This document shows positions 2,520 to 57,097 of a stretch of 64,000 nt of DNA, in pieces. Source of the stretch: Fidelibacterota bacterium (GTDB lineage: Bacteria > Fidelibacterota > Marinisomatia > Marinisomatales > TCS55). The stretch lies in the NCBI GenBank assembly GCA_014239435.1, contig JAAZYX010000003.1:62001-126000 (forward strand). Direction: 5' to 3'. The notes below the pieces were generated by a model. That model ran no database searches. It was given only the letters and a program-made list of their open reading frames with translations, and was not told where the DNA came from. Numbering within the stretch: position 1 is the stretch's first letter; the number at the start of each line of letters is the position of its first letter. Position numbers and translations under genes: made by a program.

Positions 2520-3760
2520 AGTATTTTATCGGCATCATCCTATTCACAATCCAAGCAGGATTATCTCAGGAGTTGTTAGAATCCTTTGATTTAGACGGAC
2601 TCAACAGATTCAAAGGAAAAACATCCTATCAGTTTGAGTTGGAATCGGATGATTTGGGGGAGCGATCACTAACCATCAACCACGTTAAAGGCGATATTGT
2701 CGTGAAGGGAACGGTCGGCAGTGAAATCATTATTGTTGAGACCATAATTATCAAATCTCTTTCCCGAAGCAAAGCACAAAAATTGTTTGAAAATAAAAAG
2801 GCAAAAATTTCCCGCAATCCAAACTCTGACCACTTTTTGATTGAAGGCGTTGCTATGAAATCATCTAAAGTGAATTTTGATTACACCATTGAATTGCCGA
2901 GCCATTTTAATCTGGAATTACACACGTCAGGCGGCGACATCAAATGTAAAAATATTGTTGGCGCCATTCAAAGCCAGACAAGCGGCGGAGACATAGAATT
3001 CATCGGTCTGTATGGAAAAATAGTAGGAAAAACTTCCGGAGGTGATATAACAATTGAGGATTCACAAGGATCGCTTTCTGTTACTACTTCGGGTGGTGAT
3101 ATTGAAATTTTACGCTCAGAGGGTATTATTAGTAGTAAAACTTCCGGAGGTGATATCGAAGTAGAAAATGTAAACGGGAAATTGACCGTGTACACAAGCG
3201 GAGGCGATATTGAACTCTCTCACATTAAAGGGAATAGCACTGAAGCAACTACTTCTGGCGGTGACATTGAAGCTGAGTATTTAACAGGTGATCTCATGGC
3301 AAAAACATCGGGCGGCAGCATTGAAGTCTATCAGCTGGAAGGGAAACTGGATGCCACAACATCCGGAGGCGATATTGAATTAAAAAATATCGAAGGGAAA
3401 ATTAATGCGTCCACAAATGGTGGATCTGTTTCTGGGGAATACATAAGCGGATCTATTCGTGCATCATCCAGCGGCGGTGATATTGATGTATTAATAATTG
3501 GGCATAAAAATGATCAAGAACACAACATAAGCCTTGATGCCAAATCCGGCGACATTAAACTCGTTTTGCCTGCCAATTTTCCTTCTTCTATTGACGCTCG
3601 AGTTACGGGAGAACGCTCATCCAGAGCCATTGAATCTGAATTCCCTATAACCATCATTCTTGACGATAACCAAGTGACGGGGTCAGGGACAATCGGGAAC
3701 GGAAATCATATAGTTATACTTAGAGCACAAAACGGCAGAATTACCATTGAAAGGAATTAA
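2516..3760 (+). CDS. Exported DUF4097-like beta-repeat protein
   Basis: 414 residues with a signal peptide ending GLS|Q at residues 17/18. From about residue 137 to 325 it has ten to eleven copies of an 18-residue unit beginning TSGGDIE, which by its regular turn-strand spacing should form a right-handed beta-solenoid. The N-terminal 110 residues (strand rich, with NHVKGDIVVKG) and the C-terminus (DAKSGDIKLVLP) match the DUF4097/'putative adhesin' family, which sits beside sigma/anti-sigma genes in many genomes. Most glycine pairs and the aspartate are kept in every copy, with a TNGGSV variant near the end. It overlaps the anti-sigma gene by ATGA. The molecular function is unknown; periplasmic or surface location is predicted. 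Confidence 0.8.
   Translation: MKYFIGIILFTIQAGLSQELLESFDLDGLNRFKGKTSYQFELESDDLGERSLTINHVKGDIVVKGTVGSEIIIVETIIIKSLSRSKAQKLFENKKAKISRNPNSDHFLIEGVAMKSSKVNFDYTIELPSHFNLELHTSGGDIKCKNIVGAIQSQTSGGDIEFIGLYGKIVGKTSGGDITIEDSQGSLSVTTSGGDIEILRSEGIISSKTSGGDIEVENVNGKLTVYTSGGDIELSHIKGNSTEATTSGGDIEAEYLTGDLMAKTSGGSIEVYQLEGKLDATTSGGDIELKNIEGKINASTNGGSVSGEYISGSIRASSSGGDIDVLIIGHKNDQEHNISLDAKSGDIKLVLPANFPSSIDARVTGERSSRAIESEFPITIILDDNQVTGSGTIGNGNHIVILRAQNGRITIERN
2924..3490 (+). repeat. In-frame 54-base tandem repeat coding TSGGDIE units
   Basis: About 10.5 copies of a degenerate 54-base unit, each coding an 18-residue repeat that starts with TSGGD. DNA identity between copies is partial, with codons for Gly and Ser varying, whereas the protein motif is nearly constant, pointing to selection on the protein rather than recent slippage. 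Confidence 0.85.
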
Positions 3761-3763
3761 CGC

Positions 3764-5383
3764 ATGAAACAAATGATTTTACTCACACTCATTTTATCCA
3801 TACCACTTTCCGCTCAGGATAATGTTGATGAAGTGATTGAAGAGGTTGAAGAAATCATCGAAGATGCTGTGGAAGAAATTGAAGTAGAACTTGAAGCATT
3901 GAACGATAATGGTCACAAAAATCATTCTGAATCAGAAAGATATAATGAAGACCAATGGAAATCGGAAGATGAGACCATTACAGATGAAATCATTTTTTAT
4001 AAGGATCATGTCATTCCAAGCGGTGATGTTTCCTATGACTATATTCGTATTATCGGCGGAGACCTAATCGTGGATGGCACGGTTAAGGGAAAGATTACAC
4101 TCATCGGCGGCGATGTAAAATTGAATGAAACCGCCGTTTTGGATGGACAAATAGTTGTAGTGGGTGGAAATGTTCAAAAGCATACCAATACCGTTATTAA
4201 CGGAAAAATCATTGAAAGTAATCTTAAGGAGGGGCTGCTTTACCGCGAGACAGATTCGGAAGAAGATATACAAGGCACAACCAATTTTGAATTGGAAGAA
4301 CGGTCGGACCGCGCAAAACAAAGCTGGATTCATCCCGAAGCACCTACCTTTGTCTATAATCGGAATGAAGGGGTTCTTCTTAACTATTTCCATAAGCGCT
4401 GGGATCGCAGAACACTGTCCAGTTTTAGAGTTACATCATCCTTTGGAGTCCGCCTGAAACCAAACCATACGCCTGATTATTCCCAAAGGCTAACCATGGA
4501 AAAAACATTTGGACTGAATCGCAATATTACCGTATTCGGAAGCGGATTTAAGGAAAGCCAAACAGACGATGCCTACCGACTCCCGCTGAATGAAAACACT
4601 TTGGCCTCTATACTTGGGAGACAGGATTTTTACGATCGCTGGGATGAGACAGGTTGGGAAGCCGGCTTTGGTGTGGATATATCCCGATTGAAAATAAAGG
4701 CAGCCTACAGCGAAGCGAGCCAAGATTCAATTTCTGTTGCTGATATCTGGAGTGTATTTGAAAAAAACAGAATTTTGAGAGATAACATTCCTGTCACACA
4801 TTTGGATAAAGTGAAAACGACAGAAGTGACCGCCGCATTCCGAACCAAGGATTACAATCCTCTCAAAAATGGCCTCGCACTTTTTGGCCAATCAGAATGG
4901 TACGATACCGGCGACAAATCAGAAGGCCGTATTAATAGAACCCTTGCCATGGGAATTGCCAACCTGGAAATCGCCGAAGGGATAATTTTCCGAACGCGGA
5001 TGATGGGCGGCACTTCCGCCGGCACCTTGCTGGCTCACCGTTATTTTGGTGTTGGCGGCCTTGGCTCTGTAAGCGCTCATCCTTTCAAAGCTCAGATGGG
5101 CGATCAATTTGTACAGGGGAATTTTGAATTTATCGTCACTCCGGAATTCACTGATTCTGGCTGGCAGGTAAAACTGTTTGCCGATGCCGGGCATGCTTGG
5201 ATGAAAACGAATTATGGATTCGATCTGGAAAAAATAAAGTCATCGGCAATCACGTCATTCGGCATTGGCATTGGCATTGGGATAGGTGACATTGATGATT
5301 TGGATTGGATGATTAACATTTCGCAACCAATGAATGAAGGCGGCGTTTTGCAAACAACCGTAAGATGCAATTACAATTTCTAA
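3764..5383 (+). CDS. Outer-membrane barrel protein with bactofilin-like N-terminal domain
   Basis: 539 residues. Signal peptide 1-17 (LSA|Q) is followed by a very acidic, probably helical stretch (about 19-48, mainly E, V, I and D), then a short beta-helical segment at about 85-145 of the polymer-forming/bactofilin type (IRIIGGDLIVDGTVKGKI, then LIGGDVKLNETAVLDG). From about residue 185 to the end it has alternating strands and a segment HRYFGVGGLGSV near residue 425 that matches the Omp85/BamA 'surface antigen' barrel; the chain ends in an aromatic (NYNF) as barrel proteins do. Only 3 bases separate it from the previous stop and 1 base from the next start. No POTRA domains are visible, so it is not BamA itself. 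The role is unknown; the fusion of a solenoid and a barrel is unusual. Confidence 0.7.
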   Translation: MKQMILLTLILSIPLSAQDNVDEVIEEVEEIIEDAVEEIEVELEALNDNGHKNHSESERYNEDQWKSEDETITDEIIFYKDHVIPSGDVSYDYIRIIGGDLIVDGTVKGKITLIGGDVKLNETAVLDGQIVVVGGNVQKHTNTVINGKIIESNLKEGLLYRETDSEEDIQGTTNFELEERSDRAKQSWIHPEAPTFVYNRNEGVLLNYFHKRWDRRTLSSFRVTSSFGVRLKPNHTPDYSQRLTMEKTFGLNRNITVFGSGFKESQTDDAYRLPLNENTLASILGRQDFYDRWDETGWEAGFGVDISRLKIKAAYSEASQDSISVADIWSVFEKNRILRDNIPVTHLDKVKTTEVTAAFRTKDYNPLKNGLALFGQSEWYDTGDKSEGRINRTLAMGIANLEIAEGIIFRTRMMGGTSAGTLLAHRYFGVGGLGSVSAHPFKAQMGDQFVQGNFEFIVTPEFTDSGWQVKLFADAGHAWMKTNYGFDLEKIKSSAITSFGIGIGIGIGDIDDLDWMINISQPMNEGGVLQTTVRCNYNF

Positions 5384-5384
5384 C

Positions 5385-6275
5385 ATGACGATTCAAAAAA
5401 TCACCGTACTATTCCTCATTCCTCTGTTAGGGATTTTTGCGCAATCTGAAGATGAGGATAAAAAATCCAACACGGTTCGGGACTTCTATCATTACAGAAT
5501 TGAAGACGTAAGCGAAGTGGATGCATTCATATCATTTGGGTTGGGAGAAATGATAATTGCTGCAAACAGCCACTCAAAACGGTTTGACGGGTCTGTAGAA
5601 TACGCATCAAAAATTAATAAACCGGAAATAACCTATTCGGAACAGAACAATAAGGGAACTCTTATAATTAAACAAAATTCCGATAAAATCGTCAGGGACG
5701 AGAGTTACCAATTCGGGAAATCCTGGGCCCATAAAATTCCCAATCGCGGTGAATTTTATTTTCCGCCTGATGTGGCTCTCAATCCAGAAATCGAATTTGG
5801 TCTTGGAGAAGCAGAATTGGATTTTTCCGGATTAACTATTAACAGTCTTGATATTAAATGCGGACTCGGAGAAATGGAAATATCTGTAAATCGAGCAAAC
5901 AGCAAAGCAGCAGCATATTTACATATTGATGCCGGGCTTGGCGAATTCGAGGGACACAATCTTGGAAACCTTCGCGCCAGAGAAGTGTCGATTGGCGTTG
6001 GTCTCGGTTCTGCAGAAATTGATATGCGGGGAAAAAATCTTGTGGATATGGATATTGATATTTCTGTCGGGCTTGGTTCTTTGGAATTAATTTTACCAGA
6101 AAAATCAAACATTCGAATTGATGCTGACCATAATTTTCTTTCCTCCGTTGAAGTGATTGGCCTCGTTAAGAAAAACGGCCGGTGGCAAAGCAATAACTGG
6201 AATAATGCCTATCCTTCAATTACCGTAGAGGCAAAAGTTGGGATCGGCTCGATTGAAATTCTGGTACGTGATTAA
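5385..6275 (+). CDS. Exported GLG-repeat (LiaF/toastrack-like) protein
   Basis: 296 residues with signal peptide 1-19 (IFA|Q). It carries six or seven evenly spaced units beginning GLGE or GLGS (FGLGEMIIAA, FGLGEAELDF, CGLGEMEISV, AGLGEFEG, VGLGSAEIDM, VGLGSLELIL, and finally VGIGSIEILV), about 20-25 residues apart, which resembles the LiaF C-terminal / DUF2154-type beta-solenoid ('toastrack'). That fold is known in envelope-stress proteins. It is the last gene of the sigma-factor operon and follows the barrel gene after 1 base. It converges on the Rieske gene with a 4-base overlap of the stop codons. A sensor or structural role in the periplasm is likely; the exact function is not known. Confidence 0.7.
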   Translation: MTIQKITVLFLIPLLGIFAQSEDEDKKSNTVRDFYHYRIEDVSEVDAFISFGLGEMIIAANSHSKRFDGSVEYASKINKPEITYSEQNNKGTLIIKQNSDKIVRDESYQFGKSWAHKIPNRGEFYFPPDVALNPEIEFGLGEAELDFSGLTINSLDIKCGLGEMEISVNRANSKAAAYLHIDAGLGEFEGHNLGNLRAREVSIGVGLGSAEIDMRGKNLVDMDIDISVGLGSLELILPEKSNIRIDADHNFLSSVEVIGLVKKNGRWQSNNWNNAYPSITVEAKVGIGSIEILVRD

Positions 6276-46694: not shown

Positions 46695-47135
46695 ATGACA
46701 CATCCCTCGGAAAATCAGCCGCAGCCAGATTCAATTCCCAGATTGACTCATTCTCTTGATGCTTTCGGACATGAAACAATCACCAAGCTCGCATCGTGGA
46801 GTAAATTTGTCGGCATCATGAATATCATCTTCGGCATTTGCTATGCTTTGTCTATAATTCTTTTAAGTTTCCCCACTTTTTTAATGGGCGTTTTTATGAT
46901 TGTTATTGGTACCAAGCTAATCAATGCCAGCGGACATCTTCGCTACGCGATTTCTATGCAGGACAATGTCAGCTTTTCGCGGGCATTAGATCAGATTCGC
47001 AGTTTTATGGCGCTGACGGGAATCCTGTATTTGATCGGCGTTATTCTATTCATTCTCATTATGATGATTGTATTTGTATTCGGGATAGCCTTATTTGATT
47101 TTTTCACCGATTCGGGATTTGATTACACCATTTAA
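46695..47135 (+). CDS. DUF5362-like membrane protein
   Basis: 146 residues with a polar N-terminus of about 35 residues, then two strongly hydrophobic hairpins (VGIMNIIFGICYALSIILLS to LMGVFMIVIGTKL, and MALTGILYLIGVILFILIMM). The middle ISMQDNVSFSRALDQIRSFM loop is as in DUF5362 proteins of FCB bacteria. Function unknown. It is 39 bases before the large transporter fusion and may be co-transcribed. Confidence 0.6.
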   Translation: MTHPSENQPQPDSIPRLTHSLDAFGHETITKLASWSKFVGIMNIIFGICYALSIILLSFPTFLMGVFMIVIGTKLINASGHLRYAISMQDNVSFSRALDQIRSFMALTGILYLIGVILFILIMMIVFVFGIALFDFFTDSGFDYTI

Positions 47136-47174: not shown

Positions 47175-50100
47175 ATGAAATTTTTTATGAAAATGCTGAA
47201 TATTCGTCCCGGAGAGGGCAAAAAAGTCCTGACATTATTTTCCTATTTCTTCTTTTTAGTGTGTGTTGTCATAATTGGAAAAACGACCCGTGACACCTAT
47301 TTCCTGAGCCGGTATGATCGAGAGCTGCTGCCCATCATGTTCGTGATAACTGCTGTCGTGATGACAATTATCATTTCTATTTACAATAAGATCAGTAGCA
47401 AAATTAATCTGCCGACACTTGTCTTATCCTGCTTGGTGCTTTTTATCCTGAGCTTGGTGCTGCTGCAATTCAATCTAAAGGGAATCATGATTCCTGTTTT
47501 ATTTGTATGGATGGATGTCGTCTGTGCCATTCCTCTCATTCAATTCTGGATGATCGCCGGACAATCATTTGGCCCAAGAGAAGCCAAACGATTATTCGGA
47601 GTTATTGGCGGAGGCGGCTCACTGGCGCCAATGGTCGCCGGCATGAGCTTGAAACCCTTTATTGCCAAGTTCGGAACCGATGAACTTCTGTTTGTAGTTG
47701 CCGGACTGCTTGGATTTGTATTGCTGCTAATGCCGTTTGCAATGAGTTTTAGATTAAAATCCAGTCAAAAGCAAACCGCTCAGCAATCCCAAAAAAAACA
47801 GAAAAAAATCTTTAACCCGTATTTAAAATCGATTGCTATCGTCATCGGTTTATCCTCCATTGTTTCCCTCTTAGTAGATTATCAATTCAAAATGATCGCG
47901 AGTACAACCTTAACTGACGAAGCATCTTTGGCTAGCTTTTTTGGTTCATTTTTCGCGGCAGCTGGTTTTCTGATGCTTATTATTCAGTTCGGACTAACCG
48001 GTCCAATCCTGACGCGGTTCGGGATATTAATCGGACTGCTGATTCTTCCCATTATATTATTGTTTGGCGTATCGGCATTTCTGGTTGCGCCTGTATTATG
48101 GGCGGGAACACTTGCTAAGTTTTCCGACCAAAGTTTGAAATTCACCGTAAATCAATCGGTGTGGGAAATTCTATGGCTTCCGGTTCCGCCTCATCGAAAA
48201 AATACAGGCCGGCCGTTTGTAACCGGAACCATTACATCCATCATGATTGGTATTGGAGGATTGGTAACCTTTATTTTAACAAAATACATCCCGCTGCAAT
48301 TCCTAAGCATTATTTCTATCATAGCTCTTTCTGCATGGATTTGGACTTCCTTCAAACTGAAAAAGCAATATGTTACTTCGCTACAGAATGCTGTTGAAAA
48401 ACGTCAGCTTAATTTTGATGAATTGACTCTAGATGTCACCGATTCCGCACTAGTCGAAACCATTCAGAAAGCACTGGATGTAGAAGACGACAATCAGCGG
48501 TTATTTGTTTTGGATTTGGTGAAGGATATTCCCCTTTCACCGTGGAAAACAACCGTACAGGAAATGTTTAGAATTGGATCATTCGAAGTTCAGAGTACCA
48601 TTCTTTCGCTTGCCATCGATGACGAAGATGTCATTCCAAATGAGGAAATTATCGACGCCTTCAAACAGGGCGGTTTATTGGGAAATAAGGCAGCTGTCGT
48701 AGCCGGGCATCGTAAAATAATTGAATTAACTCCAGAATTTGAAGCCCGACTAAACAGTGAAAATCCGGATGAAAGCGCTGCAGCAGCGGCGGCTATTTTA
48801 ACGCTTGATTCGGGAGATACACAAAAGGCGCTGGCTGTCCTGCAAAACCATATTGATGACCCCGATCCGTACACGACAAAACTTGCTTTGCAAAATTTGG
48901 TTGAAACGCCGGACCTCATTTCAGCTGATCAGATTTCTCAACTGCTTTCCCATGATTCAGGTGAAGTTCGCGTTGCGGCATTAGACCTCATCCAAAATGG
49001 ATCCAACCCATCTCTGCTTTCTTTAATTGTTGATAATCTTGCGAACTCCAATACTGTTTTTGCAGCAAGAACAGCTTTAAAACAATATGATGAAACAGAA
49101 GCCATTTCTGCGCTTGCAGAAAAATCCAGAGGAAGCATATCCCGCGATCTTTCTTTGGGTATTCTGAATACATTAAAACAGTATCCGAACGCCGGAAGCG
49201 CAATGATCGCCCACGAAATGATGGATCGAACCAACCCCCGGATTTACCGAGAAGGCGTGGATACACTTCTTTCCATCGCAAGGCAGAATCCACTGCCAAC
49301 ATCTCTTTTGAAGCATTTAGAGGATGAAACGCAATTCATAGCTGAATTGGCATATCAATACACCGCGGCGCTTAATTTATTTCCTGATAATAGGGGTGAG
49401 ACGTTAATCGAGGATCATCTCAACCACCGGATTTCTCTGTTGCTTCCTGTGCTTCTTAAGCTTGGTATAATGGATCGTCCCGACACGCGAATTGAAACCT
49501 ATATTCATACACTGCAATCCAAAGACGCCGGTCGGCTTGGTTTTGTGCTGGAATTACTGGAGCAGATTTTTACCAAGGAAGAACGAGATTTGATCAATCC
49601 GCTCATCGAACCCATGGATATTGGTGAGCGCGTAAACATGGGAAGAAAATTTTTCCCTAATCTTCCAAATGATAAACATTATTTTATTCAAAAAGGACTT
49701 CACTCAGGGCATGATTGGACGACGACTCTTTACCTAAATCAAATTTTTATTTCCGGGAATGATAAAGCTTTGTCAGAAATTGACTGGAGAAAAATAGAAG
49801 CAACCGATCTCATTAAAGAAGTCATCAGTTTGCATACGTACAAAAACGGTATAGAAACTTCCGGCATTGTGCCGGACTCATATGTATTGGAAAAGGAGGC
49901 ACTGCCTATGTATTCCACCATCGAAAAAACCATCCTGCTAAAAAGCGTAAGCCTTTTTCAGTCCATCCCGGGAGAAGATTTATCTCGAATATCGCACATA
50001 GCCGAAGAGGTTCATTTTGACGCGGGAGAAACCATTTTTAAAGCAGGTGAATTCGGCGATTCGATGTACATCGTCATGAATGGAAGCGTCAAGATTCACA

Positions 50101-50321
50101 TCGAAGATCAGCACATTGCAGCGCTTGGAAAAGGTGAATGCTTAGGGGAAATGGCGCTGTTAGATCAGGATCCGCGTTCTGCAGACGCGACGGTGGAAGA
50201 AAATGCAATCCTCCTGAAAATATCGGGTGATGCGTTTTATGAAATTATGAGCGGAAATATGGATATTATGCAGGGCATCGTCAAACTGCTGACAGGCCGC
50301 CTGCGCGACGCCATTAAATAA
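47175..50321 (+). CDS. Nucleotide-transporter-like membrane domain fused to HEAT repeats and a cyclic-nucleotide-binding domain
   Basis: 1048 residues in three parts. About 15-410: eleven or twelve membrane helices of the Npt/Tlc ADP/ATP-exchanger superfamily (IIGKTTRDTYFLSRYDRELL, FWMIAGQSFGPREAKRLFG, FSDQSLKFTVNQSVWEILWL). About 440-850: HEAT-type helical repeats (for example HDSGEVRVAALDLIQNGSN). About 910-1045: a CAP-family cyclic-nucleotide-binding domain with the phosphate-binding cassette GEMALLDQDPRSADATV, the Glu and Arg that hold cyclic nucleotide both present. The ligand-binding part lies on the cytosolic side, so a second messenger may gate the carrier. The substrate is not known; in free-living bacteria it need not be ATP/ADP. 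Confidence 0.85.
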   Translation: MKFFMKMLNIRPGEGKKVLTLFSYFFFLVCVVIIGKTTRDTYFLSRYDRELLPIMFVITAVVMTIIISIYNKISSKINLPTLVLSCLVLFILSLVLLQFNLKGIMIPVLFVWMDVVCAIPLIQFWMIAGQSFGPREAKRLFGVIGGGGSLAPMVAGMSLKPFIAKFGTDELLFVVAGLLGFVLLLMPFAMSFRLKSSQKQTAQQSQKKQKKIFNPYLKSIAIVIGLSSIVSLLVDYQFKMIASTTLTDEASLASFFGSFFAAAGFLMLIIQFGLTGPILTRFGILIGLLILPIILLFGVSAFLVAPVLWAGTLAKFSDQSLKFTVNQSVWEILWLPVPPHRKNTGRPFVTGTITSIMIGIGGLVTFILTKYIPLQFLSIISIIALSAWIWTSFKLKKQYVTSLQNAVEKRQLNFDELTLDVTDSALVETIQKALDVEDDNQRLFVLDLVKDIPLSPWKTTVQEMFRIGSFEVQSTILSLAIDDEDVIPNEEIIDAFKQGGLLGNKAAVVAGHRKIIELTPEFEARLNSENPDESAAAAAAILTLDSGDTQKALAVLQNHIDDPDPYTTKLALQNLVETPDLISADQISQLLSHDSGEVRVAALDLIQNGSNPSLLSLIVDNLANSNTVFAARTALKQYDETEAISALAEKSRGSISRDLSLGILNTLKQYPNAGSAMIAHEMMDRTNPRIYREGVDTLLSIARQNPLPTSLLKHLEDETQFIAELAYQYTAALNLFPDNRGETLIEDHLNHRISLLLPVLLKLGIMDRPDTRIETYIHTLQSKDAGRLGFVLELLEQIFTKEERDLINPLIEPMDIGERVNMGRKFFPNLPNDKHYFIQKGLHSGHDWTTTLYLNQIFISGNDKALSEIDWRKIEATDLIKEVISLHTYKNGIETSGIVPDSYVLEKEALPMYSTIEKTILLKSVSLFQSIPGEDLSRISHIAEEVHFDAGETIFKAGEFGDSMYIVMNGSVKIHIEDQHIAALGKGECLGEMALLDQDPRSADATVEENAILLKISGDAFYEIMSGNMDIMQGIVKLLTGRLRDAIK

Positions 50322-50322
50322 A

Positions 50323-50622
50323 TTAATCGTCCAAGATTTTTTCGAGTGCCTCTTCGGATTTTTCTTCGAAATATTCACCGACTTTTTCTTTTCCGGTTTC
50401 TATTACTTCACTGCCCTTTTCCCCGATTTCCTTCAATGAAGCGGAAACATCATCTCCAGTTATAATCAAATACGCGACATAGATAACCAGCACCGCTGCC
50501 ATCACCAAAACCAACTTCATCAGTTTTTTTATAACCCCAAATAAAATGACTGCGGCAAAGACAACAGCAATTCCGAGGTAAGCAGGGTTTTCTGAAAATA
50601 TTCTTACGAGATCGTCAATCAT
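50323..50622 (-). CDS. Small membrane protein with acidic helical tail
   Basis: 99 residues. Two hydrophobic helices at about 15-55 (YLGIAVVFAAVILFGVIKKL, MKLVLVMAAVLVIYVAYLII), then a charged, probably coiled tail (GEKGSEVIETGKEKVGEYFE). No family recognised. It overlaps the stop of the UshA-like gene (ATGA) and is likely translated with it. Convergent with the transporter fusion, whose stop lies 1 base away. Confidence 0.55.
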   Translation of the reverse strand: MIDDLVRIFSENPAYLGIAVVFAAVILFGVIKKLMKLVLVMAAVLVIYVAYLIITGDDVSASLKEIGEKGSEVIETGKEKVGEYFEEKSEEALEKILDD

Positions 50623-52412: not shown

Positions 52413-52982
52413 ATGAAATTCAATAATAAATACCGCATCAAATCAGCCAGATTGCCGCATTGGGATTATGGAAATCCGGGGATGTATTTCGTTACGATTT
52501 GTACCAAGAATTTTACTGAATGGTTTGGAATGGTTCAGAACAGGGAAATGATTTTGAATAAAACAGGAAATATTGCAGAAAATTATTGGGTCGGAATCGC
52601 AGACCATTTTGACAATGTTGAATTGGATGAATTTATTGTAATGCCGAATCACATTCATGGTATCATAGGAATAATTGGTGATAAAACTGTTGGTAGAGAC
52701 GTTGCATGCAACGTCTCTACATCTGATCGTATGTCCAATATTTCACCAAAACCAAAATCATTATCCACAATAATCCGATCCTACAAATCTGCTGTTACCC
52801 GATCCATTCGCAAACACCACAACTCCCATTTCGCTTGGCAGCCTCGATTTTACGATCATGTGATTCGCAATAATCATGCGCTGAAAAATATTCAAACCTA
52901 CATACAGAAAAATCCCGAAAACTGGGAGAAAGATCAAAGCCTACTGCAAGAAAATGAGCGATTTATTTCAAAATTGAACTGA
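52413..52982 (+). mobile_element. REP-associated tyrosine transposase (RAYT), Y1 HUH family
   Basis: 189 residues. The HUH motif is MPNHIHGIIGI (His-x-His after hydrophobics) and the catalytic Tyr is probably in IQTYIQKNPENW. Opening YRIKSARLPHWDYGNPGMYF and RFYDHVIRN are typical of IS200-like RAYT proteins, which process short palindromic REP sequences. A GGGGG ribosome-like site precedes the ATG. It lies 40 bases past tRNA-Thr, with no other transposon parts or terminal repeats seen. The palindrome at 52693-52720 is inside the gene, in frame. Apparently intact. Confidence 0.85.
52693..52720. repeat. Perfect 28-base palindrome within the RAYT gene
   Basis: GTAGAGACGTTGCA followed directly by its reverse complement. 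It codes VGRDVACNVST in frame without a stop. The flanking bases are not complementary, so the palindrome is exactly 28 bases. The form is like REP-type palindromes that RAYT enzymes recognise. Confidence 0.9.
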
Positions 52983-53000: not shown

Positions 53001-53408
53001 TTATTCCACTCCCATTAATTCCACTTCAAATATCAAAACCGAATTCGGCGGAATAGGTCCCATATTGCGGCTACCGTATCCGAGTGCCGGAGGGATGGTC
53101 AACTTCCGCTTGCCTCCGACTTTCATTCCAAGCAGTCCCTGATCCCAGCCCAAAATAACCTGACGCGCTCCAAGCGTAAACCGATACGGACCCCTCCCGG
53201 GATTCAGTGAAGAATCAAATATGGTTCCATCTTCCAGCGAGCCTGTATAATCCACCGATACAATGCTGTGACGTTCTGCCTCCGCACCCTCACCGATGAT
53301 CACGTCTTCCATTACAAGTCCATTTTCCATTGTTACCACCTTTTGGCTTCCACATCCTGACACCAAAAGAATCAAAACTGGAAGCATTATTTTTGTAAAT
53401 GTGTTCAT
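53001..53408 (-). CDS. FKBP-type peptidyl-prolyl isomerase lipoprotein
   Basis: 135 residues from the ATG at 53406-53408 (MNTFTKIMLPVLILLVSGCG). Lipobox VSGC. FKBP domain at about 30-135: VSVDYTGSLEDGTIFDSS, GWDQGLLGMKVGGKRKLTIP, ALGYG and LIFEVELMGV. The ligand-pocket residues Tyr, Asp, Phe and Trp are kept. It should speed proline isomerisation of periplasmic or outer-membrane proteins. Divergent from lptD, 146 bases away. Confidence 0.92.
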   Translation of the reverse strand: MNTFTKIMLPVLILLVSGCGSQKVVTMENGLVMEDVIIGEGAEAERHSIVSVDYTGSLEDGTIFDSSLNPGRGPYRFTLGARQVILGWDQGLLGMKVGGKRKLTIPPALGYGSRNMGPIPPNSVLIFEVELMGVE

Positions 53409-53554
53409 TTCTTTCTCCAATAAAGGCTGTGAGTTTACGCAGGAAGACTGTTAGAATTACTTGTAAATTCACTTCAAGCATCCAAAGATCAAACCATCTT
53501 GAAATTAACAAACAGGAACCCTCGGCAGGTTATGCGCATTTACGAGCAACGCTT

Positions 53555-56500
53555 ATGAGAATGCGCATCCTTACCCTTTGCCTCCTTACGGGAACTCTAT
53601 TTTCTGCCGATGATCGCCTGCGCCTTAAACGTGCAGATGTCCTGGAAAACAGGACAATAAATGGTGAATCGGTTCAGATCCTAACAGGGAATGTAATTTT
53701 CCAAAAGAAAGATATGACGCTTTCCTGCGACCGCGCCCGCTACCGCCAAAAGAAAGGTCTCGGAATGCTGGTGGGCTCCGTTCGAGTTCTTCGCGATGAG
53801 CAAACGTTAACCTGCGACTCGCTTCATATTAATTCACCCAAAGATATTCTCACCGGCTACAGCCGGGCGCATGCCTGGAATGAAACCTATGATCTGACTT
53901 CAGATACGCTCGTGTACTACTCCGAGCAGGACAGCGGCCTTGCGATAGGAAATGTGAATCTCATTCAAGAAGGGCAAACCGTTTTTGCAGAACGCATCAC
54001 CTACGCACAGTCTCAAAAAACAGAAGGCGTCTCCTATTCAGCTCACGGCAATGTTACTATACAGGACAGTTTGCGAACCGCCACTTGCGGACGAGCGCTG
54101 TACGATCGGGACACAGAAAAGACTCTCCTTCAAATCGATCCAAATGTTGTTCAGGAAGGACAGACGCTTTCCGGCAAGGAAATTTCCCTGAACTACAGCG
54201 ATGGTGCATTGGAGTTCGTTTTTATTCCCGAAAAAGCGCATGCTGTTTACCAGAATTCGGGGTATCGTGAATTTGAAACACAAGAAGAAGATTCGGCTGT
54301 AATAGGCAAAGAAATCACCTCTTTTTCTGATGATATGACCAGCCGCAGTTTGAAAGCATATTTTGTGGACGGCTCATTGGATTCCATGCGGCTGGAAGGG
54401 ATGGCGACAACCTTGTATCATATTTTTGAGGATTCGGTTTATCAGGGGAAAAATCTCGCTTCTGGCGATACGGTTTGGATGAAATTCAATGAAGGCGATT
54501 TGAACCGAATCCGGATCTCGGGAGGATCCCGCGGTACGTATACGCCAGACACGATAGCAACAAACATTGAGGCACCGGTGGAATACACTTCAGATGTAAT
54601 TGATTATAAAATTCCTGAAGAGGAAACCGATTTACATGGCAGTGCGAACATTGATTACACAAATGTGCATTTAAGCGCCGGCTTTATCAATGTTCTGTGG
54701 CCGAGTAATGTCCTTCGTGCGCTACCACAAGGTCACAATGATTCATCCTACTTATTCATGAAGCCGACACTGACAGAAGCCGGCAGAGATCCCATGGAAG
54801 GCGACACGCTCTTGTACAATCTTGAATCCCGCAGAGGGAAAGTGATTGAAGGCAGAACAACAATAGATGACGGATATTACCAGGGGAAAGAAATCCGCAA
54901 TCGCGAAGATGATGATTTTTACATTGATAACAGCATTTACTCCACGTGCGATCTTCCCGTGCCTCACTTTCATTTTGAAAGTACGCGCATGAAAATGGTT
55001 TCGGAGGACAAAGTGTTGGCGCGGCCAATCGTTCTGTATATTGCCGGCATTCCGATTATGGGGCTTCCGTTTGGCGTTTTCCCGCACCAGCGAGGACAAA
55101 GGCATTCCGGATGGATTATGCCCGGCTACGGGGAAAGCAACACACGCGGACAATATCTTGACGGGCTCGGATATTATTGGGCGCCCAGCGATTATTGGGG
55201 TTCAAAATTTACCATGAGTTTTGCCGATCGGCAGGGAATTACGATGCGGTTAAACAATGCGTACCGAAAACGTTACGGATTTAGTGGAAATTTTAATCTT
55301 GAAAGCAGGCAGAATTTTCCATCCGGTCTGGGACAAAGCGAGCGCGATATCACGCAGCTTTTAAACAACCGGAAAAGCGATTATGTGGTTAACTGGAACC
55401 ATAATCAGGTATTGCGGAATGACCAAACATTTAGAGTAAATGCCAGCTATTACAGCAATGGTGAATACAATCGGCTTACTGGAATCGATCCGGTAAAACG
55501 GTTAAGCCAGCAGGCACGGTCCAATGCGACCTACACAAAGCGCTGGAGGAAATCAAACAACTCAATCAGCATCAATTTGTCATCCAACACAGACCTTATG
55601 GTGGACCAAAAAATAGATCCGGCATCCACTTTTTATTCCACACCAATCCGAAGCGGTTCTCAACTTGACATCACATCTAGCACGTTCCCGAAAATTTCCT
55701 TTCGGCACGGACAGAGAAAATTGTTTAAACACAGCGGCGGACTGCAAAAATGGTATCACAATATCGCCTACAATTATTCGGCAAATTTCAATAATAAGCT
55801 ACGGACGTACTATGAAAGTGAATCATATGCCATTGATGATTCTACTTCCGATTACCGCTGGATATCCAATTCAGACAGTTCCGGAATTGTACAAACATTC
55901 AATGATTATGTTACCAACCACAGCATGGGAATCAGCGCGCCGCAAAAAGTGTTTAAATACATTACGCTGAATCCGAGTATGAGCCTTAGATCTTCGTGGG
56001 TGAACAAAACTTTCAGCGGGCATTTTGATACAAGCGGCACCCTTGTAAAAGATGAAATTTCCGGTTTTGCCCAGCGGACAACCGGCTCTATGGGCATCAG
56101 CCTATCCACACAGTTTTATGGTCTTTTCCCCATCGGATTCGGTTCCATCAAATCCATCCGCCACGTAATGTCGCCATCCATTGGATATTCGTACACGCCG
56201 GATTTCTCTAAGCCAGTTTTTGGGACGGACCTCGGGTATTTTGAGACTATCACTCAGGATACCCTGAGCCAGACTATTGACAGGTTTTCCGGAACGATGG
56301 CCGGCGGAACGCCCTCCGGCGAACGGCAGTCTATGAATTTTTCTATGAATAATTCTTTTCAGGCGAAAGTTGGGGATGGTGACCAAATCAAAAAAGTGAA
56401 CCTGTTTACGTGGCGGATGCAAACGGGATATAATTTTGTGGCAGAATCTTTCAAACTGTCCCAGTTGCGTTCTTCGGTTCGAACCAATATAGCCGGGAAA

Positions 56501-57097
56501 CTGAATCTCGACTTATCCATGACGCATGATTTTTACGAATACAATTCCGTTTCAAAAAAACGGATTGACCAATTTCGAGTAACAGAATCCGGCATTCCCA
56601 ATCCACGGCTTATGAATATGAACCTATCAACCGGATTCAAATTTTCAGGAAAAAGATTTGCGCTCAAAACAGAAGAAGTTTCTGAAATTGACACAAGCAA
56701 TTCTCAGGAAAAGCAGGATAGCAGATCACCATCTCTCGGCGGAGGATCCGGCGGCGGGAATGTGTGGAGTACAACGCTGAATATCAGTTATTCCCAAAAC
56801 CGATCCAATCCGGAATACATTCAAGAAACGTTTTGGCTCTCTACAAACTCCAGTTTAAAGCTGACAAAAAACTGGCAAGTTCAGTACAGTGCACGGTTTG
56901 ATTTATTAAAGCGGGAACTTGTTAGCCATAACTTTTCATTAAGCCGCGACCTCCATTGCTGGAATATGGCTATCACGTGGACGCCTTCTGGATATGGGTC
57001 GGGATTTTATCTTAAACTGAATGTAAAATCGCCGACTTTGAAAGACCTAAAAGTTGAACAAAAAGGTGGACGGTACCGATCCCAGCCAAACTGGTAA
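53555..57097 (+). CDS. lptD: LptD-like LPS assembly outer-membrane protein
   Basis: 1180 residues from ATG 53555; another ATG two codons later is equally possible. The longer frame lacks a signal, while here MRMRILTLCLLTGTLFSADD gives one. The N-terminal half has OstA/LptA-like beta-jellyroll units (NGESVQILTGNVIFQKKDM, LTCDSLHINSPKDILTG, LYHIFEDSVYQGK, NREDDDFYIDNSIYSTCD), then the LptD middle region (FPHQRGQRHSGWIMPGYGES) and a large barrel. Together with a plug lipoprotein LptE, LptD places LPS on the surface. LptD is about 780 residues in E. coli but longer in FCB bacteria. No lptE gene is seen here. Confidence 0.87.
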   Translation: MRMRILTLCLLTGTLFSADDRLRLKRADVLENRTINGESVQILTGNVIFQKKDMTLSCDRARYRQKKGLGMLVGSVRVLRDEQTLTCDSLHINSPKDILTGYSRAHAWNETYDLTSDTLVYYSEQDSGLAIGNVNLIQEGQTVFAERITYAQSQKTEGVSYSAHGNVTIQDSLRTATCGRALYDRDTEKTLLQIDPNVVQEGQTLSGKEISLNYSDGALEFVFIPEKAHAVYQNSGYREFETQEEDSAVIGKEITSFSDDMTSRSLKAYFVDGSLDSMRLEGMATTLYHIFEDSVYQGKNLASGDTVWMKFNEGDLNRIRISGGSRGTYTPDTIATNIEAPVEYTSDVIDYKIPEEETDLHGSANIDYTNVHLSAGFINVLWPSNVLRALPQGHNDSSYLFMKPTLTEAGRDPMEGDTLLYNLESRRGKVIEGRTTIDDGYYQGKEIRNREDDDFYIDNSIYSTCDLPVPHFHFESTRMKMVSEDKVLARPIVLYIAGIPIMGLPFGVFPHQRGQRHSGWIMPGYGESNTRGQYLDGLGYYWAPSDYWGSKFTMSFADRQGITMRLNNAYRKRYGFSGNFNLESRQNFPSGLGQSERDITQLLNNRKSDYVVNWNHNQVLRNDQTFRVNASYYSNGEYNRLTGIDPVKRLSQQARSNATYTKRWRKSNNSISINLSSNTDLMVDQKIDPASTFYSTPIRSGSQLDITSSTFPKISFRHGQRKLFKHSGGLQKWYHNIAYNYSANFNNKLRTYYESESYAIDDSTSDYRWISNSDSSGIVQTFNDYVTNHSMGISAPQKVFKYITLNPSMSLRSSWVNKTFSGHFDTSGTLVKDEISGFAQRTTGSMGISLSTQFYGLFPIGFGSIKSIRHVMSPSIGYSYTPDFSKPVFGTDLGYFETITQDTLSQTIDRFSGTMAGGTPSGERQSMNFSMNNSFQAKVGDGDQIKKVNLFTWRMQTGYNFVAESFKLSQLRSSVRTNIAGKLNLDLSMTHDFYEYNSVSKKRIDQFRVTESGIPNPRLMNMNLSTGFKFSGKRFALKTEEVSEIDTSNSQEKQDSRSPSLGGGSGGGNVWSTTLNISYSQNRSNPEYIQETFWLSTNSSLKLTKNWQVQYSARFDLLKRELVSHNFSLSRDLHCWNMAITWTPSGYGSGFYLKLNVKSPTLKDLKVEQKGGRYRSQPNW

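Follow-up and report, generated by a model that had tools for sequence, protein, structure and literature searches.

The window analysed here, a stretch of 64,000 nucleotides, contains one long gene in which three kinds of domain follow each other in a single chain. Its reading frame opens with an ATG at 47175, closes with a TAA ending at 50321 and has no break between, and the domain order of the product is NTT, then HEAT, then cyclic-nucleotide (cNMP)-binding domain. Membrane-protein genes flank it on either side, with counts among 30 fetched loci, some of which are short at their ends:

47175..50321, + strand: whole gene, NTT-HEAT-cNMP-binding fusion, 1048 aa (open reading frame and Pfam)
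47175..48398, + strand: membrane domain, residues 1-408, NTT/MFS fold, 12 predicted helices
48444..49889, + strand: cytosolic helical-repeat arm, residues 424-905, with a HEAT_2 match at 587-649 (Pfam and model)
49902..50318, + strand: conserved linker MYSTIEKTILLKSVSLFQSIP and cyclic-nucleotide-binding domain, residues 910-1048
50142..50186, + strand: phosphate-binding cassette LGEMALLDQDPRSAD, residues 990-1004, with Glu992 and Arg1001
46695..47135, + strand: DUF5362 membrane protein, upstream of the fusion at a distance of 39 bp, 22/30 loci
50323..50622, - strand: convergent small membrane protein, 99 aa, 28/30 loci

Pfam analysis of the whole protein returned cNMP_binding (E 2.5e-20, residues 946-1026) and HEAT_2 (PF13646; E 3.7e-7, 30.8 bits against a cut-off of 27.7), and reported no transporter family. 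The arm spans about 480 residues and is all-helical from 424 to 890 in the whole-protein model, such that the HEAT repeats proposed in the initial annotation are seen as a profile match above cut-off within a helical solenoid. This model is modest (pLDDT 74, pTM 0.47) and gives no more than a tentative placing of the arm. An internal stop was present in only one of the 30 fetched loci (L027, one TAA), ruling out a chance fusion or an assembly artefact. Comparing two representatives of the genus gave a dN of 0.105 versus a dS of 1.79 for the membrane part and 0.056 versus 1.72 for the cNMP part, both dS values being near saturation; the HEAT-part dN was set aside, as it came from an ungapped comparison across indels. 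The fusion is no accident of chance or frame: it recurs in related genomes, and dN is far below dS in the two representatives compared. Reading frame, Pfam, orthologs, PDB profile and fold model together confirm the joining of carrier, HEAT repeats and cNMP-binding domain that had been read from the letters. Alignments of orthologs comprise 23 of the 30 loci, leaving out near-duplicates of kept rows (L008, L011, L013, L019, L021), L022, which is cut by a contig end, and L027 with its internal stop; L031 is a named twin of L003.

The architecture is real, conserved and already described. NTT-HEAT and NTT-HEAT-cNBD fusions were reported by Major, Embley and Williams in 2017 (PMC5381601), who, in the available text, find the fusions monophyletic, include one Marinimicrobia sequence in their tree, and describe NTT fusions as widespread in bacteria, also naming Chlamydiae, cyanobacteria and oomycetes. 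The same text proposes a tuning by cAMP that builds on a link between cAMP and ATP, and states that no fusion had been characterised by then. The accessible part of a 2019 review repeats this account (PMC6995639), and that of a 2023 review mentions that MFS-cNMP fusions exist (PMC10710835). A search of the open-licence literature found no later functional characterisation of NTT-HEAT-cNBD fusions. The earlier statement that similar fusions occur in other free-living bacteria with unsettled substrates hence agrees with PMC5381601, as far as its available text goes: its fusions have the same domain order, include the same phylum, come from free-living bacteria and oomycetes, and are uncharacterised.

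The descent of the membrane domain only emerges beyond the single sequence. Taken alone, the membrane part matches MFS_1 only (E 2.4e-4), and PF03219 (TLC) does not match it even at E<=10; across its own genome PF03219 has no match at E<=1e-3, the first such search having left its controls unmatched too. PF03219 does match 18 of the 23 orthologous membrane parts, one of them from the same genus. Across the phylum it occurs in 32 of 149 genomes, both in fusions and in single-domain proteins. A profile of these 23 orthologous membrane parts, compared with the PDB at E<=0.01, identified two distinct sequences only, both NTT1: that of C. pneumoniae (9j3n, E 2.6e-17, residues 10-407) and that of Arabidopsis (9j3j, E 1.1e-12). 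Profile-profile comparison of the fusion membrane part with four single-domain NTTs of the phylum yielded a probability of 99.9% over 390 columns. The membrane part as modelled with AlphaFold2 (pLDDT 75.4, pTM 0.77) superimposes on Arabidopsis NTT1 (AtNTT1) structures with Z 39.4 (rmsd 2.8, 397 residues) and 37.9, and on the C. pneumoniae NTT1 structure with Z 32.7, the best non-NTT entry being LacY at Z 28.8. The whole-protein model places the same three NTT1 structures on top. Two further NTT1 entries, 9j3j and 9j3o, reach Z 25.1 and 24.6 against the whole model, level with other MFS carriers, and are absent among the best 50 structures for the membrane-part model, which likely reflects a difference in conformation. 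The identity of entries 9j3j-9j3o is taken from their titles, as no paper on them was found in the open-licence literature. An ordinary MFS carrier, as the Pfam result would have it, was rejected, with three NTT1 structures scoring ~4-11 Z above the best other MFS protein.

By profile and model evidence, the membrane part is of NTT (Tlc/Npt) type by descent; the initial annotation, which had named this carrier type, was right, by way of the PF03219 matches of the orthologs, the PDB profile and the fold rather than the lone sequence. Compared with AtNTT1 and C. pneumoniae NTT1 (PDB 9j3j, 9j3l, 9j3m, 9j3n, 9j3o), fold and whole-length homology are common, at ~18% identity in structural alignment, and the fusion adds the HEAT and cNMP arm. 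Seven charges of the membrane part (D40, K138, R139, D235, K239, K315, D318) are invariant in the 23 orthologs, which argues for a working membrane domain. The central loop holds seven K/R and zero acids, which suits a cytosolic position; with 12 helices, both ends of the domain would lie on that side too.

Four charged residues, K155, E245, E385 and K527, matter for transport by Arabidopsis NTT1, according to the available text of PMC10654386 and PMC4256464; mutants at K155 lose ADP binding, and those at K527 lose ATP binding entirely or almost so (PMC3306366, part of text). We mapped these charges onto PDB chain 9j3j by alignments, where a single offset of 84, counted by eye, fits K, E, E and K. 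The corresponding places in the fusion are:

47340..47342, + strand: Phe56, place of Lys155 (ADP-binding); F in 23/23 orthologs
47514..47516, + strand: Asp114, place of Glu245 (translocation); E in 17/23, D in 6/23
47877..47879, + strand: Asp235, place of Glu385; D in 23/23
48246..48248, + strand: Ile358, place of Lys527 (ATP-binding); E in 20/23, I in 3/23

The register at K155 varies by method, the profile-profile comparison setting a gap beside Phe56, and residues 53-69 of the window protein contain no Lys or Arg; at K527 the register is uncertain by one residue, Ile358 coming from the profile-profile comparison. The equivalents of K155 and K527 are thus lost and the two acidic places kept in all 23 orthologs. 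Both lysines are likewise missing from five other proteins of the phylum, fusions or NTT-HEAT proteins, which have Thr, Thr, Arg, Thr and Ala at the K527 place. In contrast, the four single-domain NTTs of Marinimicrobia (L034, L036, L037, L039), which belong to the same membrane family at 25-26% identity, retain both lysines, have Asp at both acidic places and carry no arm. An alignment of the charged residues needed for ATP/ADP exchange had been suggested as the check on this protein; it found the acids in place and both lysines missing. With two of the four charges of an ATP/ADP-exchanging NTT gone, the protein is not classed as an ATP/ADP translocase, and exchange of ATP for ADP by the fusion does not seem likely from its residues. 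Other NTTs also depart at some of the four places (PMC10654386 and PMC4256464, in the text available), and for that reason the lysine loss leaves room for nucleotides or for another mode of holding them. The words 'residue' and 'lysine' do not occur in the available text of PMC5381601; the loss of both lysines across the Marinimicrobia fusions examined comes from the present analysis and would be new, together with the intact cNMP pocket and near-universal presence in one family described below.

At the other end of the protein, the PF00027 profile match contains an intact cassette, LGEMALLDQDPRSAD, and this aligns without gaps to the pockets in the best PDB match, a PKG chain. In such cassettes Glu holds the ribose and Arg the phosphate of the cyclic nucleotide. 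Invariant in all 23 orthologs are G991, M993, A994, L995, L996, D997, P1000, R1001, S1002, A1003 and D1004, and residue 992 is E in 18 and D in 5 of them. The cyclic-nucleotide-binding cassette was therefore correctly called intact, Arg1001 being present throughout; the cassette residues do not distinguish cAMP from cGMP. Residues 901-950, where the domain starts, hold more invariant columns (14/50) than any other 50-residue block across the 29 loci that remain of the 30 without L027, a stretch that would suit a coupling linker. A match of the cNMP part to PADLOC models for PycTIR and similar effectors (E 9.6e-20) led us to consider an anti-phage effector of Pycsar type, with a cNMP domain responsive to cCMP or cUMP. 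This match is confined to residues 937-1046, however; Pfam finds no TIR domain, no cyclase is among the neighbouring proteins scanned, and the near-universal presence of the gene in its family (34/37 genomes) is unlike that of a defence gene. We rejected this candidate as highly improbable, because only the cNMP part matches, with neither TIR nor adjoining cyclase.

A possible source of cAMP is encoded in the own genome by two CHASE2-class III cyclases (L032:1243-3537 on contig C13 and L033:1231-3537 on contig C26), the second of which lies on the window's contig, outside the window. By our reading of the sequences, both carry the metal-binding Asp pair and the adenine-type Lys/Asp pair. A tie between fusion and cyclase genes is unsupported: PF00211 matches 38 of 42 genomes with the fusion versus 15 of 19 others (Fisher p 0.24).

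By a hand-typed count of matches better than roughly 1e-40, leaving aside the cNMP part, 42 of the 61 related genomes (the own genome among them) have the fusion, five of these being partial or split. Within its own family the fusion is almost universal, with 34 of 37 genomes, and the three that lack it are 58-77% complete. One genome without the full fusion encodes, on a 118-aa ORF, a cNMP domain with 58% identity (G038:C44:122835-123131), perhaps a split form. At another locus (L044), a single-domain NTT with both lysines (1114-2433) is followed after 210 bp, on the same strand, by an NTT-HEAT protein (2644-5388) that has neither a cNMP domain nor the two lysines; these two are possibly a paired system. 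The DUF5362 protein beside the fusion is a possible partner.

Conserved neighbours of this kind (22/30 and 28/30 loci) would be in line with a membrane domain that serves as a non-transporting sensor (transceptor) or as an anchor, from which the HEAT-cNMP arm signals to partner proteins. The lost substrate lysines favour such a role as well, as does the length of the arm, a domain kind associated with protein-protein contacts in the available text of PMC5381601. The invariant intramembrane charges and low dN suggest a working permeation path instead, and we regard a sensor or anchor without transport as improbable.

The supply of purines bears on whether the cargo is a nucleotide. PurC is absent from all three genomes of the genus (the own genome, G000, and G001 and G002), and PurD and PurH are absent from the own genome, which is 93.4% complete; G001 keeps PurD and PurH. 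Allowing for the incompleteness of the genomes, this hints at a possible purine auxotrophy of this marine bacterium. Nothing contradicts the free-living host assumed in the initial annotation, with the caveat that, lacking PurC, PurD and PurH, it may need purines from outside. A CNT nucleoside transporter, which could supply them, is encoded in 11 of 11 genomes tested, the own genome included, and NCS2 in 2 of the 11. PurC is present in 28 of the 42 fusion genomes (Fisher p 0.22), so that the fusion does not track auxotrophy, and we discarded the idea of a purine-auxotrophy gene. These data weigh on the proposal of Major et al. that proteins of this type carry purine nucleotides (ATP, ADP, AMP, NAD or similar), here through a rearranged site, and are tuned by cAMP to the energy state. 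Descent from NTTs, retention of both acidic residues, the usefulness of uptake to a genome with apparent purine auxotrophy (PurC missing throughout the genus, PurD and PurH in this genome), and the link between cAMP and ATP put forward in the available text of PMC5381601 fit with nucleotide cargo; the loss of both phosphate-binding lysines in 23/23 orthologs, the missing tie to auxotrophy and the CNT transporter as another source of purines do not. On balance, we consider a purine nucleotide carrier rather unlikely.

We favour a cAMP-regulated carrier of NTT descent that is no ATP/ADP exchanger, at a probability of roughly 0.5. Our data show the architecture, the homology, the match in fold, the intact residues of the pocket, the absence of both lysines and the cyclases of the genome; we infer transport, cAMP as the ligand, gating by its binding and the class of cargo as follows. 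By descent the protein would be a membrane carrier of the NTT (Tlc/Npt) family of ATP/ADP translocases, equipped with an arm for regulation in the cytosol. The class III cyclases of the host would supply the cytosol with cAMP; its binding in the C-terminal pocket would cause a change that the conserved linker and HEAT solenoid relay to the membrane domain with its 12 helices, thereby altering the rate of transport. The cargo would more likely be some anionic metabolite, or a nucleotide held in a different way, than exchanged ATP and ADP. We tentatively suggest, as a conjecture with odds somewhat against it, that the lysines are gone wherever a HEAT or HEAT-cNMP arm is present and that the NTT fold was re-purposed in the fusion branch into a cAMP-gated MFS-fold carrier, whose cargo would differ from that of the NTTs characterised so far. 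If the lysine loss holds across fusions, calling the branch as a whole 'nucleotide transporter' becomes doubtful; a cAMP-gated carrier, if true, would directly link energy signalling to uptake. We know of no bacterial MFS-type carrier gated directly by a second messenger. The sperm Na+/H+ exchanger SLC9C1 combines a carrier with a cNMP domain; it has another carrier fold, and a voltage sensor where the fusion has HEAT repeats. Its structures (PDB 8pd8, 8xq8 and others) serve as a works-like comparison only, and a shared fold was rejected, as a whole-model rmsd of ~33-37 and a TM-score near 0.1 point to shared-domain matches only.

Elsewhere in the window, 52413-52982 encodes an IS200-like Y1 transposase of 189 aa, which we presume may be of the REP-associated kind, and 53399-57097 encodes an LptD-type outer-membrane LPS assembly protein of 1232 aa.
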